Virus record (IMG/VR): IMGVR_UViG_3300037840_000214
Span: 1 to 26,389 of that record
Length of the DNA stretch: 26,389 nt
From: a virus
Strand: one strand, 5' to 3'
The notes under the pieces were generated by a model. It searched no databases and was not told the DNA's origin. It saw only the letters and a list, made by a program, of their open reading frames with translations. The translations under genes were made by a program, and so were the position numbers. The stretch's first letter is position 1. Each line of letters opens with the position of its first letter. This document shows positions 17,633 to 25,459 of this stretch, piece by piece.

Positions 17633-20317
17633 TTACGGTTGCACGGTGATGTTGGCCCGCTTGAGATACCCCATGATGATGCGATCGAGCGGCGGGGTGC
17701 CGCCCTTGGCTTCAATATCCGATGACCTCTCCATGGTCAGGCCGAGCGCCCGCACCTTCGGCTGTACCCAGGTATTATAGGCCTGATAGGCCATCGCGGC
17801 GCCCATCACGCGATCGTCCTTGGCGCGGCCCTCGGCGCCGATGTGGCCGCCGTCGCTGACGATGCGGCGCATTTCGTCCAAGAGCGGCATCGATCGGGGG
17901 ATCATGCGGTGCAGTTCGATCGCGTTCTTGAACTGGTTCATGGCGCGGCGCTTGAGGTCTTCCGTCGTCTTCCACTGATACAAAAGTTCGCCGCCGCCGG
18001 GGTTGTCCATGCGCTTATAAAAATAATGCCGCATGTTCTGCAGGATATTTCGGATGTGGTAGTTCTCGTCATGCGGGCGAATTTCGGAGGCGAAGCGCCG
18101 CACCTTTTCCAGTTCGTCGAACACGGCCTGGCCCGGCCCGTTCATTTCCAGAATCGGCATAAGGAACGTGACACCGTAATATCCCGCAAGGTGGGCGAGC
18201 ACCCAAGCACATTGATACGTGCTTGGCTGTGGCGAACAATATTCAGCCACTTGAACGAGACAGTCAGCGTAACATCGCCAGATGCTAATAACCGTTCGAT
18301 CCGCTTCATCTGAGCTTCCGTAAGCGGGATCGCAGCCGAGAGCGTAATATCCAAATCTTGAGGCATCTTCGTAAATCCTCAATTCGGCGCGGGGGTCTTT
18401 GACCTGCCGCAGTTCGGTCTCCTCGAACTTCATACCGAGTTTATAGCGGAATGTCTGGAACGCGCATTTCTTGGCAACCCGCATGCACTCGCTCATGGCA
18501 TCGACTGTGAAGAATTTCGACCCCGTGGCCACGAACGCATCGCTTTCGGTCCACGGATATTCCTGGTCCATCGACGACTGGTCGCCGTCCTTTTCGCTCG
18601 CCATGTGCCAGCGGTACCAGGCGATCTGCTGCAGGCTGATCTCGAACGAATAGAGTTCGCGGACCTCGCGCACCCGCTTGCGCTCCAGCGGCGTGAGCGT
18701 GCTCTTGATGCCGTCCGGCATATAGTTGAGAAAAAACGGGTGGCTTACCGGGAGCTGGTTTCGTTCGTCCCGCCACCAGCCGATGAAGATGGCTTTCTTG
18801 GTAGGGTCGTCCTTGGTGACTTCCCACATGTCCCAGAAGTGGTTGAAGCCGTTCGCTGTGGTTTCGTAGATCTGCAGTCGATGCGGATAGAGCGACGATG
18901 TTTGTGAGCGGAATTCCGAAAGGTCGTCACCGTTACCGTAAAAGGCGCATTCGGTGGCATGGACAAAATTTGCTGCACCACCGCGACCGAGACCGCCCTT
19001 TCTAACTTCTGAAGTTCCGGCGATGAGATAGCGGAACTTGCTGGCGTTTTTGAGAATGAGAAGGTTTCGGTTATGCCGAACGTAGTTGACCCGGTATTTG
19101 GTCGGGGTTTCCGCGAAAAAAACTTCAACTGTGGCTCTGAAGTCATCGCGCATCTCCTCCTTGTGGGTGATGAAGACCCCCAATAGCCCCTTGTGAGAGA
19201 ACGCCCAGAACATGTCGAGCGCGAGGAAGAATGAGGAGTTATGCGAGACGAAGCCGTTTGCAATATAAGTTTTATCGCTGGTCTGCACGTCCACCATCTC
19301 TCGCTCATCTAGTGGCACTATTTTCACTATCTTGGAATTACCGATAGCGTCGGCGCCTTTGCCAGGGAGTTCTCTATTTTCCCAAAATCGCTTCCCGATA
19401 AAACGAGACGGGCGAGTTTGCCCGATCAAACGAAACAGTTCATCCATCCGATTGAAAACTAATTTTGGAACGGGTTTCCTTCCAAATTTAGATGGTCTAT
19501 CGGGGCCATCCGATTCAACCCGATGATGATACCCGCGCTCATTTGCGTAACTGACCATCCGATTCCAAACCGGACCGGGAAGTTGTGCTGCGCATAGGCT
19601 AGTGCCCGATCGATTGGCATTAGAGATAGACCCCTCGCCATCCAGGATACCGCCGAACCAACCATCCTCGATATGTCCCGGCGACCATGGCTGAGTGATC
19701 CATCGAATCTTATGTCCTATCTGGAGGCGTTCCAGTTTCGACTTTGCCTGTATCGATCGCCAGCGCCACACACCTTGGCTATTACGGGTAAGCCATCGAT
19801 GCTTCCCCGTGCATATTAGCGTCCGGCCATCGTCAAATTCAATTTGATACGCCCGCTCTCGGACGCGACCGATAGCCTCTACCAAAGTAGTGCGCATTTT
19901 TCTCGCACTGCCTTTCCCCTTCGTAAGGGGAAATTCATCGACGCCCACGAGCGCATCACCAACTTTCAAATCGGCAATACGGCACCACGTATAATCCGCC
20001 TTCAATACCGGAGTATCGGGGTCGAGGCACGCGCCGAGCTGCCGCGCTTTAAGCACGACGAACGTGGTGATGCCGCGCGACAGGCCTTCCTCGATCTCGG
20101 CCAACAGATAGCGCTGCGAGCCTAGCAGGCGGAACGGCACCAGCCCGTAATCCTTGCTCTGCACTTTCAGGTGCGAGAGGAATTTCAGGAACCGCTCGGT
20201 CGGGAACGGCGCGACGCCCTGATATTCTAGCGTAAAGGCGGCGTCGAAACCGAGCGGGTCTTGTTCGTCGTCGTCGATCGTCAATAGGTTAATCCTCGCC
20301 GCGTTCGTTCCCACCAT
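17633..20317 (-). CDS. terL: Terminase large subunit, interrupted by an intein
   Basis: The 894-residue precursor should splice to about 630 residues. It is the packaging motor: ATPase plus RNase-H-like nuclease. I chose ATG 20317 (MVGTNAARINLL); a longer frame to 20458 lies inside the recombinase gene. Split Walker A: RQLGA (92-96) continues after the intein as SSFFLAL (361 on). Walker B is FVHATECAF (E456), and the coupling motif is YETTANG (484-490). Nuclease acidic residues are D663 in GCDPAYG, E724 in ILEMNG and D834/D835 in DDRVMGAA. All are present, so the spliced enzyme should be active. No small terminase gene was recognised nearby. The gene ends twelve bases before the adhesin-like gene. 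Confidence 0.9.
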   Translation of the reverse strand: MVGTNAARINLLTIDDDEQDPLGFDAAFTLEYQGVAPFPTERFLKFLSHLKVQSKDYGLVPFRLLGSQRYLLAEIEEGLSRGITTFVVLKARQLGACLDPDTPVLKADYTWCRIADLKVGDALVGVDEFPLTKGKGSARKMRTTLVEAIGRVRERAYQIEFDDGRTLICTGKHRWLTRNSQGVWRWRSIQAKSKLERLQIGHKIRWITQPWSPGHIEDGWFGGILDGEGSISNANRSGTSLCAAQLPGPVWNRMVSYANERGYHHRVESDGPDRPSKFGRKPVPKLVFNRMDELFRLIGQTRPSRFIGKRFWENRELPGKGADAIGNSKIVKIVPLDEREMVDVQTSDKTYIANGFVSHNSSFFLALDMFWAFSHKGLLGVFITHKEEMRDDFRATVEVFFAETPTKYRVNYVRHNRNLLILKNASKFRYLIAGTSEVRKGGLGRGGAANFVHATECAFYGNGDDLSEFRSQTSSLYPHRLQIYETTANGFNHFWDMWEVTKDDPTKKAIFIGWWRDERNQLPVSHPFFLNYMPDGIKSTLTPLERKRVREVRELYSFEISLQQIAWYRWHMASEKDGDQSSMDQEYPWTESDAFVATGSKFFTVDAMSECMRVAKKCAFQTFRYKLGMKFEETELRQVKDPRAELRIYEDASRFGYYALGCDPAYGSSDEADRTVISIWRCYADCLVQVAEYCSPQPSTYQCAWVLAHLAGYYGVTFLMPILEMNGPGQAVFDELEKVRRFASEIRPHDENYHIRNILQNMRHYFYKRMDNPGGGELLYQWKTTEDLKRRAMNQFKNAIELHRMIPRSMPLLDEMRRIVSDGGHIGAEGRAKDDRVMGAAMAYQAYNTWVQPKVRALGLTMERSSDIEAKGGTPPLDRIIMGYLKRANITVQP
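19238..20029 (-). mobile_element. LAGLIDADG intein in the terminase ATPase motif
   Basis: An in-frame insert of 264 residues begins with Cys (CLDPDTPVLKADYTWCRIAD) and ends VSHN, followed by the extein Ser. Splicing motifs are complete: block A at the Cys, block B TLICTGKHRWL with TxxH, block F REMVDVQTSDKTYIANGF, block G FVSHN. The endonuclease part shows one clear LAGLIDADG-type motif, GWFGGILDGEGSI (residues 219-231 of the precursor). Intein plus endonuclease is short (LAGLIDADG inteins are usually 350 or more residues), so the endonuclease may be reduced. Removal restores RQLGA-SSFF, the Walker A loop. Terminase P-loops are a known intein site. Confidence 0.92.
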
Positions 20318-20385
20318 ATGTACCGATGCCACCCCCACCAATATGGATTGGCAAACGAACTTCTGATGATGGGAAGTCTGCTCAT
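20281..20385 (-). CDS. Possible 34-residue Trp-rich peptide, tentative
   Basis: An ORF begins with ATG overlapping the recombinase stop (ATGA) and runs 34 codons into the first bases of terL in another frame. It encodes MSRLPIIRSSFANPYWWGWH followed by a basic tail. The coupled start is suggestive, but the tryptophans come from a GGTGGGGGTGG run that also supplies the terL ribosome site, so the frame may be open by chance. Confidence 0.25.
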   Translation of the reverse strand: MSRLPIIRSSFANPYWWGWHRYIWWERTRRGLTY

Positions 20386-20858
20386 GCGCCGGCCGCGATT
20401 TCTTCAGCCGTCGGCGGCACCAGCTTGCGCTTCTTGGGACGCCCGCCGATCCGGCCACGGGCCCGCGCCGCGGCGAGTCCGGCCAGCGTCCGCTCGACGA
20501 TGATATCGCGCTCGAACTCGGCGAAGCAGGCGAGGATGTTGAACATCAGCTTTCCGGTGACCGTGGTTGTGTCGATCGGCTGGGTGATGCACTTGAGATC
20601 GACACCTTTGGTTCGGCAGGCCTCGGCGATCTGGCCAAGGTGCACGGTGGAGCGCGCAAGCCGGTCGAGTTTCCAGAACACGAGGATGTCACCGCGTCTA
20701 AGGAAGTTAAGGCAAGCAGCAAGTTGCGGCCTCTCGCGGTCAGTACCACTGGCCTCGTCGATGAAGATTTTCGTGCAGCCGTATCCTTTGAGCGCGTCAA
20801 ATTGCAACTCCGGGCTCTGGTCGATGGTCGAAACGCGGGCATACGCCACAACAGTCAT
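20382..20858 (-). CDS. Small serine recombinase (resolvase/invertase family), C-terminally truncated
   Basis: The 158-residue product carries the catalytic domain of resolvases and invertases: VVAYARVST with catalytic S10, DEASGTDRERPQL, the KLDRLARS motif (63-70) and AEFERDIIVERT (113-124). These enzymes recombine DNA at specific sites through a 5'-phosphoserine link. ATG 20858 is preceded by GGAG about nine bases upstream; longer frames cross other genes. The protein stops after GGRPKKRKLVPPTAEEIAAG, where family members normally continue into a helix-turn-helix of about 40 residues, which is absent here. It may act with another DNA-binding partner, or be a degraded invertase. No inverted sites or invertible segment were found. 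Confidence 0.85.
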   Translation of the reverse strand: MTVVAYARVSTIDQSPELQFDALKGYGCTKIFIDEASGTDRERPQLAACLNFLRRGDILVFWKLDRLARSTVHLGQIAEACRTKGVDLKCITQPIDTTTVTGKLMFNILACFAEFERDIIVERTLAGLAAARARGRIGGRPKKRKLVPPTAEEIAAGA

Positions 20859-20941
20859 CAATGATACTCCGCCGGTAACACAAGCCACCGCTCGATCGCG
20901 TTGCCGATCTTCTGGAAAAACCTTCGCATCCGTCTCACCAT
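20858..20941 (-). CDS. Tiny basic peptide, 27 aa (putative)
   Basis: ATG 20941 overlaps the stop of the 44-residue membrane gene and the stop overlaps the recombinase ATG as TGATG, so the ORF exactly bridges the two. The peptide (MVRRMRRFFQKIGNAIERWL, then VLPAEYH) is amphipathic and basic. The precise fit is typical of real coupled phage genes, but at this length chance cannot be excluded. Confidence 0.45.
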   Translation of the reverse strand: MVRRMRRFFQKIGNAIERWLVLPAEYH

Positions 20942-21069
20942 TGGTCCTGCCGCCACTCTTCCTCAGTCGGGGGGCGCTCGTCCCGCTCAATATGCACCAC
21001 CAGTAGGGCCAGCCCGGCCATGCACAAAAACCCCACACCCATCATGATCAGCAACAGCGCCAGGCTCAT
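20935..21069 (-). CDS. Single-span small membrane protein, 44 aa
   Basis: ATG 21069 overlaps the stop of the winged-helix gene (ATGA). The product begins with a membrane segment (SLALLLIMMGVGFLCMAGLA, about 2-24) followed by a charged tail, HIERDERPPTEEEWRQDQW. The likely topology is N-out with the acidic tail in the cytoplasm. Part of the chain of small coupled genes before the recombinase. Function unknown. Confidence 0.6.
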   Translation of the reverse strand: MSLALLLIMMGVGFLCMAGLALLVVHIERDERPPTEEEWRQDQW

Positions 21070-23390: not shown

Positions 23391-23939
23391 TCATCGTCTT
23401 GTTTTACCGGATAAAATTGATAATAGCTCTGGCGAAGCCTGCAAAGCCACTTTCTTCTTTTCCAACCGATCCTGTTCGTCGAATACCTCGCGCGCAGCCT
23501 CAGAAAAGGTAGTAGTTATACTATTCTTAATTGCTTGAGCCGGGCTTAACGTTTGCTCAACGTTTGCTTGGTATCTCGCTTGAGCATTGCTTAACGTTTG
23601 CTTGAGCGTTTTGGCCCTCGATATCACCGAGGCCGTGCCGCCTTTGTGGCCGGCGACTTGGCGCCGCAGCCTCATAACCTCCGATTTTTCTATCTCCTCA
23701 CTGGCTCGCTGGTTGGTGCCGTCCTCCTGAAAAAATGGATTAATGGTTGGAGCTATCTTGTTCCATTCCTTGAGGGATATCTTACAAATCGCCGCGCGTT
23801 TGGCGTCCTCTAGCGGGACTTTGCCGTTGGTCCAGCACTCGCATAGAAGCAAAAAGTAAGCTCCGTGTTCCAAAACATTGAGGTGCATGGTTTTTTTGAG
23901 ATAATCGCCCGGGTAGAACGCTATGAAGGCGCGGCTCAT
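23391..23939 (-). CDS. DUF1376/YdaU-like replication protein with embedded repeats
   Basis: The 182-residue product starts with a DUF1376 (YdaU-type) domain: FYPGDYLKKTMHLNVLEHGA followed by YFLLLCECWTNGKVPLEDAK and a conserved W (EWNKI). Such proteins lie in phage replication modules and are usually placed with helicase-loader or primosome-like genes. The C-terminal half is basic and Gln/Ala-rich (LKQTLSNAQARYQANVEQTL) and is encoded by an 11-bp-period DNA repeat (23533-23610). A start at ATG 23939 overlaps a short upstream open frame by ATGA. Role in origin recognition is inference by analogy with phage lambda, where the origin lies inside the O gene. Confidence 0.7.
   Translation of the reverse strand: MSRAFIAFYPGDYLKKTMHLNVLEHGAYFLLLCECWTNGKVPLEDAKRAAICKISLKEWNKIAPTINPFFQEDGTNQRASEEIEKSEVMRLRRQVAGHKGGTASVISRAKTLKQTLSNAQARYQANVEQTLSPAQAIKNSITTTFSEAAREVFDEQDRLEKKKVALQASPELLSILSGKTRR
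23533..23610. repeat. Iteron-like array, 11-bp period (candidate replication origin)
   Basis: Seven units starting GCTY(G/A/T) lie at 23533, 23544, 23555, 23566, 23578, 23589 and 23600, at intervals 11, 11, 11, 12, 11, 11. Typical units: GCTTAACGTTT (23544, 23589), GCTCAACGTTT (23555), GCTTGAGC at 23533, 23578 and 23600. The 14-mer GCTTAACGTTTGCT occurs twice, 45 bp apart. An 11-bp period is not a multiple of three, so the repeat is selected as DNA rather than protein, and places each unit on nearly the same face of the helix, as in plasmid and phage iterons. Confidence 0.7.
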
Positions 23940-24118: not shown

Positions 24119-24577
24119 TCACGCTGGTGTCAAGCGGCCACGTTTGCCGCGCGGCGCCGTCAACGCACGGTCAGCGTCCCATCCGCGTGAAAGCCGCCCA
24201 CGGACGCTGCTCTCATTCAACAAGCAGCCGGCCGCTCGCATCGCAGCCTTAAGCGCCAGCTTCTTACCCATGAAAATCAGGATCCGATTCTTCCTAGTAT
24301 TAGCGCATTGTTCGATGTTGGTTGACCAGCGCACGTTACCTGGTTCGTAATCCCCATCGTTATCAATGCGATCCAAGGAATGCTTCGCGGACGGTCTTAG
24401 ACCAACATCGCGCAGAAACTGAGGAAAATCGCCAACCCAAGATTCGCAAATTTTGATGCCCCGAGCAGCATAATTCTTGTGATCTCGGCGCCGAGTGTAT
24501 TTCGGATTACACCGCGCTTTCATGGACTTCCACGCCGTATACTCTGGCGTGCCTTTGCCACCGTGGCGCTTCCTCAT
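24119..24577 (-). CDS. HNH endonuclease, phage homing-type
   Basis: The 152-residue product has the pattern 'EYTAWKSMKARC ... YAARGIKICESW ... FLRDVGLRPSAKHSLDRIDN', with HNH residues in HSLDRIDNDGDYEPGNVRW (H66, D69, D72, N81) and a following NIEQCANTRKNR. The C-terminal part (KLALKAAMRAAGCLLNESSV; LSRGWDADRALTAP) resembles the NUMOD-like helix-turn-helix of phage HNH endonucleases that bind and cut specific sites. It is coupled to the DUF559 gene by ATGA with GAGG eight bases upstream. It lies between the nuclease and the replication protein genes, so it is a likely insertion. Start and motif are clear. Confidence 0.85.
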   Translation of the reverse strand: MRKRHGGKGTPEYTAWKSMKARCNPKYTRRRDHKNYAARGIKICESWVGDFPQFLRDVGLRPSAKHSLDRIDNDGDYEPGNVRWSTNIEQCANTRKNRILIFMGKKLALKAAMRAAGCLLNESSVRGRLSRGWDADRALTAPRGKRGRLTPA

Positions 24578-24960
24578 TTTCTAGCCTCTAGATAAACCCG
24601 TAGTGCCACTCCTTCAGGATTGCGGTAAATCTCGCTGCCGGTAAACCGGAAAAGCTTTATGCCGGCTCTCCTTATCTGCTGATCCCGAAGTCGATCCTTA
24701 GCGATCTGGTCCGGCCGCGTGTGAAACTCCGAACCGTCACACTCTATGAAAATCAACTGGTTGTCAGGACGTTCTAAACACCAGTCGATCCGGTAGCCGC
24801 GCCACTTGAACTGCGGCAGCAAAGCCCATGAATCCTCTATCAAATCCATCATGGCCATGCCGAATAGAATTTCTATCGGGCTCTCGGTGAATTCTGCCAT
24901 TCGCGCCGCGGTAATCACGCGGTCGGCAAAGTAGGCGCCGTCTTCGATAGTGTCAGACAC
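24574..24960 (-). CDS. DUF559-type nuclease (PD-(D/E)xK fold)
   Basis: The frame is open to 25125, but the probable start is GTG 24960. It overlaps the GcrA gene's stop (GTGTCTGA) and has GAGG six bases before it; the 128-residue product then has the normal DUF559 length. Residues: ESPIE (26-30), GYRIDW (55-60, D59), FIECDGSEFHTRPDQIAKDR (71-90, with E73 and D75), then RDQQIRRAGIKLFRF. This matches Vsr/DUF559 nucleases, whose D and ECDG residues bind metal. The substrate is unknown; in phages these could serve DNA repair, recombination or anti-host functions. Confidence 0.75.
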   Translation of the reverse strand: MSDTIEDGAYFADRVITAARMAEFTESPIEILFGMAMMDLIEDSWALLPQFKWRGYRIDWCLERPDNQLIFIECDGSEFHTRPDQIAKDRLRDQQIRRAGIKLFRFTGSEIYRNPEGVALRVYLEARK

Positions 24961-25459
24961 GGTTAGCCTCACGCTCTGATCGCGTGCCGCAGCCGATCGA
25001 TAGTTGCTCATGGGGACCGCAATAGGACCGTTCCGCTGGCTTGCCATGACCGCAAAATAGGTATGAAGGGGTGCCCTTTCCACTGTCGTAAGGCCACCGG
25101 CACGTCGCGTCGGTGAGTTCGTCACACCTAATCATCCTCGGCACGATCGCAGCACAGGCGGCCTCAATGATCTCTCGGGGTGGCCTCACTCTCGGCACCC
25201 GATAGGGCTTGGCGGTCACGACGGGGGGCGGCGCCGCAGACGCGCGGTAGCCGGCCGGATTTGGATTGTTGCGCACGGGCCGCCCCTCGGTTTTGACGTT
25301 CATTCGCGCTGCTTTACCTACGATCGCGTTACGGGAATAGCTGGTTCCGAACAATTTGTTGAGTTGGTCGGCAATCATCGCCGCCGAAACCCCAGGTGCC
25401 AGCATGGCAAGGAACGCTATCACATGCTCGGCAGGCCATCCCCTATTGGTGAGCTCCAT
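24953..25459 (-). CDS. gcrA-like: GcrA-family cell-cycle regulator (phage-encoded)
   Basis: The 168-residue product has an N-terminal HTH (WPAEHVIAFLAMLAPGVSAA, then MIADQLNKLFGTSYSRNAIV, GKAARM) and a C-terminal motif CRWPYDSGKGTPSYLFCGHG followed by SYCGPHEQ (C120, C136, C147, H150). That pair is diagnostic of GcrA, which in Alphaproteobacteria associates with sigma70 RNA polymerase and activates promoters marked by GANTC methylation. AGGAG seven bases before the ATG fits. The gene overlaps the nuclease gene. A phage copy could redirect host cell-cycle transcription or activate phage promoters; three GANTC sites lie at 11989-12118 upstream of the HNH-AP2 gene. Role is inference. Confidence 0.85.
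   Translation of the reverse strand: MELTNRGWPAEHVIAFLAMLAPGVSAAMIADQLNKLFGTSYSRNAIVGKAARMNVKTEGRPVRNNPNPAGYRASAAPPPVVTAKPYRVPRVRPPREIIEAACAAIVPRMIRCDELTDATCRWPYDSGKGTPSYLFCGHGKPAERSYCGPHEQLSIGCGTRSEREANRV

Follow-up and report, generated by a model that had tools for sequence, protein, structure and literature searches.

The window, that is, the whole stretch of DNA that was analysed, is a virus record of 26,389 bases. It carries on its minus strand a gene of the DUF1376 type, as the initial annotation had proposed. Indeed, the Pfam match of the encoded protein scored 49.6 bits against a curated cut-off of 30.1, which places it within the DUF1376 family, and the same protein matched PHROG families named 'primosomal protein' with an E-value of about 1e-17. 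Short direct repeats form an array in the 3' half of the gene, well away from its start, and an AT-rich tract follows. The features of the locus are as follows.

23391..23939, minus strand: DUF1376 replication-initiator-like gene, 182 aa; PF07120, E=5.4e-13
23688..23927, minus strand: DUF1376 domain, Pfam match, residues 5-84
23625..23675, minus strand: candidate motif for iteron specificity, residues 89-105 (MRLRRQVAGHKGGTASV), within the long helix 77-130
23533..23610, in the minus-strand gene: seven 11-bp iteron-like units (one of 12 bp), coding-strand core AAGCAAACGTT; 78 bp, 26 codons
23533, plus strand: array unit 1, GCTTGAGCCGG
23544, plus strand: array unit 2, GCTTAACGTTT
23555, plus strand: array unit 3, GCTCAACGTTT
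23566, plus strand: array unit 4, GCTTGGTATCTC, 12 nt
23578, plus strand: array unit 5, GCTTGAGCATT
23589, plus strand: array unit 6, GCTTAACGTTT
23600-23610, plus strand: array unit 7, GCTTGAGCGTT
23508..23532, minus strand: AT-rich trinucleotide tract, candidate DNA unwinding element, coding strand AATTAAGAATAGTATAACTACTACC; common to relatives
23487..23496, minus strand: GCGCGCGAGG element that follows the AT-rich tract and is conserved among close relatives

Two minus-strand genes upstream of the DUF1376 gene, at 24953-25459 and 24574-25125, encode a homologue of the cell-cycle regulator GcrA (E=2e-22) and an MTES_1575-type endonuclease; the GcrA homologue suggests an alphaproteobacterial host. 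At 17633-20458, also on the minus strand, a large-terminase-like gene is interrupted by an intein-like insertion, the Intein_splicing match (residues 193-407, E=1.4e-4) being below the curated cut-off and having a weak terminase match around it. Beside the terminase lies a serine recombinase/resolvase gene (20382-21038, minus strand, PF00239, E=9e-44).

In the AlphaFold model (mean pLDDT 86), the window protein forms a winged-helix-like bundle with a long helix (residues 77-130), and the array region encodes the end of a helix and a disordered linker. The domain fold weakly resembles the N-domain of DnaD and RepA-type initiators at Z 5-6; the list of matches mixes initiators with unrelated winged helices and long helices. 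The values obtained with 4pql, 4pt7, 5kbj and DnaD 2vn2 (Z 5-6) are within the range of unrelated matches. Searching the PDB with the window protein by Foldseek gave no match at E≤0.001.

Read on the plus strand, the array consists of seven units starting with GCTY, at steps of 11, 11, 11, 12, 11 and 11 nucleotides. This is exactly what the initial annotation had described, namely seven units at 23533-23610 with a period of 11 bp and one step of 12. Because the gene is on the minus strand, the coding-strand unit reads AAGCAAACGTT. The 78 bp of the array amount to exactly 26 codons, so the array as a whole is in frame and single units are not. Allowing up to 2 mismatches, we found three copies of the core AGCAAACGTTNAGC in the window, all of them exact and within the array. 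Tandem-repeat analysis at the nucleotide level, which the initial annotation had put forward as a check, recovered the period of 11 but only part of the array: Tandem Repeats Finder reported 23544-23568, with period 11 and 2.3 copies, and understates the array because its units have diverged. A chain of seven GCT[TC] at 11/12-nt steps did not appear in 5000 dinucleotide shuffles of the gene (longest chain 4), nor when all 26 kb were shuffled 100 times (longest chain 3), and the array recurs family-wide. Chance or composition is thus a vanishingly improbable source of the pattern, and we found nothing in its favour.

As a null for selection on the DNA itself, synonymous codons were shuffled within the gene, keeping the protein (5000 shuffles for the window gene). 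The self-similarity of the window gene at lag 11 was 0.545 against 0.359 under the null (p=0.0002). Lag 34 was also beyond the shuffles (p=0.0004), and lags 8, 10, 12 and 13 were not significant under them. The null is a conservative one, since the repeats also shape the amino acids that it keeps fixed. Moreover, as 11 is not divisible by three, the reading frame changes from one unit to the next, and with it the encoded peptide. Collectively, these data and those obtained on the family (see below) demonstrated that the array is constrained as DNA, out of phase with the codons. The initial annotation had argued for such out-of-phase selection on the DNA, and the synonymous shuffles bear it out in the window and in the family. 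A possibility was that repeats produced by slippage had been tolerated in a linker, the DNA pattern being a by-product of repetition or low complexity in the protein; the location of the array, over a helix end and a disordered linker, would suit this. Yet the gain of one 11-bp unit, which is not a multiple of 3, shifts the frame, and even highly divergent genes have kept both the position and the spacing. The synonymous shuffles, besides, exclude a purely protein-level cause, and we consider this explanation hardly credible. On the basis of the shuffles, we rejected chance, codon bias and protein-level repetition.

Relatives were fetched with alignments of the N-terminal domain only, as 80 GTDB genome loci and two IMG/VR sets of 80, and removal of near-duplicates left 171 non-redundant DUF1376 genes. 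As the query was the N-terminal domain alone, the repeats had no influence on which genes were selected. When single proteins were used to scan viral and genome contigs, no relatives were returned; alignment queries did find them. Over the 171 genes, autocorrelation at lag 11 peaked at 0.38, against about 0.25, only about 200-330 nt past the GAY motif. The peak sits just past the DUF1376 domain and has harmonics at 22 and 33; a period-6/12 signal was seen about 80 nt beyond this region. Under synonymous shuffles, lag 11 reached p≤0.01 in 52/171 genes and p≤0.05 in 88/171, whereas lags 5, 7, 8, 10, 13, 14, 16, 17 and 20 reached p≤0.01 in only 0-6 of 171, and control ORFs from the same loci did so for lag 11 in 5/595 cases. 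A hold-out of 55 later genes, found with a different query, gave 26/55 genes at p≤0.01 and 42/55 at p≤0.05 for the same lag. Taken gene by gene, the lag-11 signal is significant in only about 30-50%. In the 78 clear arrays, 158 intervals were of 11 bp, 98 of 12 bp and 54 of 22-23 bp. The window gene belongs to the group that we define here as DUF1376 genes with an intragenic 11-bp array (p=0.0002).

The sequence of the units varied between phages (AGCAAACGTT, CAACGGA, ATGCAAA, TACAAAA, AAACCCA and others), and their spacing stayed at 11-12 bp. The same was observed among close relatives of the window gene: four of them (L291-L294) carry AAGCAAA- or AAGCAGA-type units in the same place at steps of about 11 bp, and another (L290), with a domain 68% identical, has GAACGTT-type units there, again at about 11-bp steps. 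The initial annotation had reasoned that relatives losing the spacing while keeping the protein would speak against its proposal. We observed the opposite, as the spacing is conserved and it is the unit sequence that changes. In all, hundreds of related genes share one layout, in which 11-base repeats are followed by an easily melted stretch.

Arrays of the AAGCAAACG type with 11-bp steps were also noticed in further phage contigs (L009, L115, L021, L035, L043 and L082). L009 and L115, retrieved through their DNA pattern rather than as DUF1376, fall in PHROG primosomal-protein families; therefore, the design may reach beyond DUF1376. Proteins of similar build that are not in the Pfam family have AAGCAAACG arrays at the same place in L055, L110 and L009, the first adjoining DnaB and the second a P-loop ATPase-like ORF. 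L072 contains, at 660-800, six near-perfect 23-bp repeats holding the same core CAAGCAAACGTTAAGCA, and no DUF1376 gene was recognized in the 3.3 kb fetched. Another match by DNA pattern (L116), with two units in a structural-gene-like ORF, was judged to be due to chance. In L118, L120 and L128 the array is followed by an inverted repeat of the TTCTTCACTTCGTTCAGAAGA type, possibly a hairpin at the candidate origin.

The stretch that follows the array has a composition of its own. In the window's clade (12 genes including the window), the tract is ACT-rich (TATAACTACTACC in the window), with a GC content of 33% against 57% for the gene. In these genes, threonine is encoded by ACT at 20/27 positions of the tract and at 22/158 elsewhere (p=6e-10). 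In a larger set of 73 genes, the first three 20-nt bins downstream of the last unit had an AT content 9, 13 and 7 percentage points above the gene mean. The excess was limited to these roughly 60 nt, beyond which values fell below the mean. The opposite strand of the tract reads GGTAGTAGTTATA, and we take this, as a lead only, to resemble the trinucleotide repeats of bacterial DnaA-trio elements. As for the GCGCGCGAGG element that comes next, its conservation as a DNA signal and that of the protein sequence AARE are not separable. The window thus shows the lambda-type layout, namely direct repeats within a candidate initiator gene and then an AT-rich tract.

Iteron type did not correlate with overall domain identity (r=0.005). 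When domain and motif columns were scanned, the top partial correlations with iteron type were found at columns 100, 101, 92, 96, 89 and 93. These columns form a motif, RRxxAGxKGG, immediately past the domain, with about 30 nt separating it from the array. Column 100 came first in all three strata of domain identity (<40%, 40-60% and >60%), with p=0.0002 in the lowest. GG went with AGCAA, and A or S at column 100 with CAACG (Fisher p=0.0003 and 0.0002), the contrast between RRxxAGxKGG and AGKASA tracking iteron type. In the hold-out, mostly one clade, 42/44 GxxSA genes were CAAC-dominant and the single GG gene was AGCAA-dominant; the motif rule had been written down before the hold-out was fetched, and the exact class patterns were coded after its rows had been printed. 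The window fits the rule, having AGHKGG together with AAGCAAACG. Part of the covariation could come from joint recombination, since the motif lies next to the array. Judging from these sequence comparisons, the short motif just past the domain probably reads the repeat sequence, and the covariation lends indirect support to the idea that the DUF1376 protein would bind its own coding sequence.

Phages with a DUF1376 gene have, next to it, a gene annotated as replicative helicase (L119), as DnaC, helicase loader or DnaC-like (L121, L125 and L126), as replication protein P (L124), as the 'putative replication protein' YdaV (L127) or as a DnaA-like protein (L122 and L123). These annotated records were used because a Walker A search in unannotated loci was uninformative, with 14/154 downstream ORFs positive against 11/146 upstream and a poor choice of ORFs. 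In the 26-kb record, no recognizable helicase or loader gene was found beside the window gene. The C-terminal region of longer DUF1376 proteins (alignment A4, positions 157-218) gave weak matches to DnaT, with E 0.2-0.4 and several chains. This suggests that the DnaT-like tail of these relatives may load a helicase or bind single-stranded DNA; the window protein seems to be without it.

Selection on the DNA and covariation with a protein motif would fit any sequence-specific binding, and the array might be an operator through which the DUF1376 protein regulates its own gene or operon rather than the start of replication. We regard this as unlikely, as the array is remote from the start of the gene, in its 3' half, and typically has an AT-rich tract after it, and as genes for a replication helicase or its loader adjoin the gene in several phages. 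In any case, autoregulatory and replicative binding are not mutually exclusive. Partition sites, too, typically have short direct repeats in helical phase, which raised the alternative of a centromere-like site or another architectural site serving segregation or packaging. However, no ParA/ParM-like gene was annotated beside the array in the relatives examined and an AT-rich tract is not expected at such a site, making this alternative very unlikely.

The reading that we favour, with a probability of roughly 0.8, is that 23487-23610 is a replication origin inside the initiator gene, where the DUF1376 protein would bind the iterons and melt the tract, and a helicase would enter. The initial annotation had proposed an analogue of lambda O, and this is the reading best supported by the iterons, the AT-rich tract and an initiator-like gene that adjoins DnaC/DnaB in relatives. 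From the array and its constraint as DNA, its position and spacing throughout the family, its AT-rich neighbour and the covariation of motif and iteron, we infer binding, melting, helicase loading and origin activity. The DUF1376 protein would bind the 11-bp iterons of its own gene. One unit per helical turn would place every copy on one face of the DNA, so that binding would build a row or filament of initiators, one protein per turn. The AT-rich trinucleotide tract next to this row would be destabilized by it and melt, and the helicase would enter on the opened strand, via DnaC- or DnaB-like partners in many relatives and, in the window phage, from host proteins or from genes outside the record. 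The RRxxAGxKGG motif would read the unit sequence, and the reader and the sequence read would thus travel together in one gene. GC skew along the window gave no clear signal at 23.5 kb, in a record that may be a fragment.

A wider proposal, to which we give about even odds, is that DUF1376 is a very large family of phage initiators, each with its own intragenic origin, and that the 11-bp iteron sequence can be read off, as from a code, from the residues around 92-101. As parts of this proposal, the motif types RRxxAGxKGG, AGKASA, AAEARY and NGSKGGRPK would specify iterons such as AGCAAAC, CAACG, TGCAAA and AACCCA, and the TAGTAG-type tract would correspond, in phages, to the DnaA-trio unwinding element.

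Lambda O and repC are known examples of the general design. Lambda has 4-6 iterons of about 18-20 bp, which are longer than the 11-12 bp units of DUF1376 arrays, present in 4-8 copies. The lambda origin consists of initiator-binding iterons beside an AT-rich tract in the middle of gene O (PMC7466680). In Stx lambdoid phages too, iterons and an AT-rich tract lie in the middle of the initiator gene, and the DUF1376 layout is alike. However, DUF1376 is another Pfam family than lambda O, its repeat sequence is highly variable between phages, and a Pfam scan of the window protein gave no protein O match at E≤0.1, which leaves it outside the lambda O family at the sequence level.

RepA_N plasmids also have iterons inside repA, those of pAD1 being short, helically spaced repeats. 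In RepA_N initiators (pSK41, pTZ2162 and pAD1), a DnaD-like winged-helix N-domain binds direct-repeat iterons, most of those characterized being semi-palindromic (PMC7145576). The fold matches of the window protein to this group are weak (4pql, 4pt7, 5kbj and 4pta), and RepA_N (PF06970) was absent from its Pfam matches, so that at the sequence level we do not count it as a member. RepA_N initiators are, in addition, mainly those of Firmicute plasmids, unlike the DUF1376 phage genes. The alphaproteobacterial repC of repABC plasmids has its origin inside the initiator coding sequence, as we propose for DUF1376. The proof there came from silent mutations, since replication is lost when the A+T-rich part is altered without changing the protein; repC is, however, without iterons (PMC3155836).

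A case in a laboratory organism is YdaU, encoded by the Rac prophage of E. coli K-12. As in the window, a DUF1376 domain is followed by an 11-bp array (lag 11, p=0.006), and the adjoining downstream gene encodes the ATP-binding YdaV (DnaC-like in related records). YdaU differs from the window gene by its iteron core, GATGTTCAAAC, and by a longer C-terminus. The Rac prophage has an active origin, oriJ (PMC3945230), whose map position we did not find in the literature searched. In that literature we found neither binding nor origin data on a DUF1376 protein, and DUF1376 was absent from titles and abstracts; the family itself, its array of 11-bp units and the candidate motif for specificity appear to be undescribed there.

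If our reading is true, a widespread domain of unknown function would gain a testable function as an origin-binding initiator. Origins could be located from sequence alone in a large group of phages and prophages; under the wider proposal, the binding target of the initiator would be predictable along with the origin. The family also offers a natural collection in which a protein motif and its DNA site co-vary within one gene, and the Rac prophage of E. coli K-12 makes the origin reading accessible to experiment.
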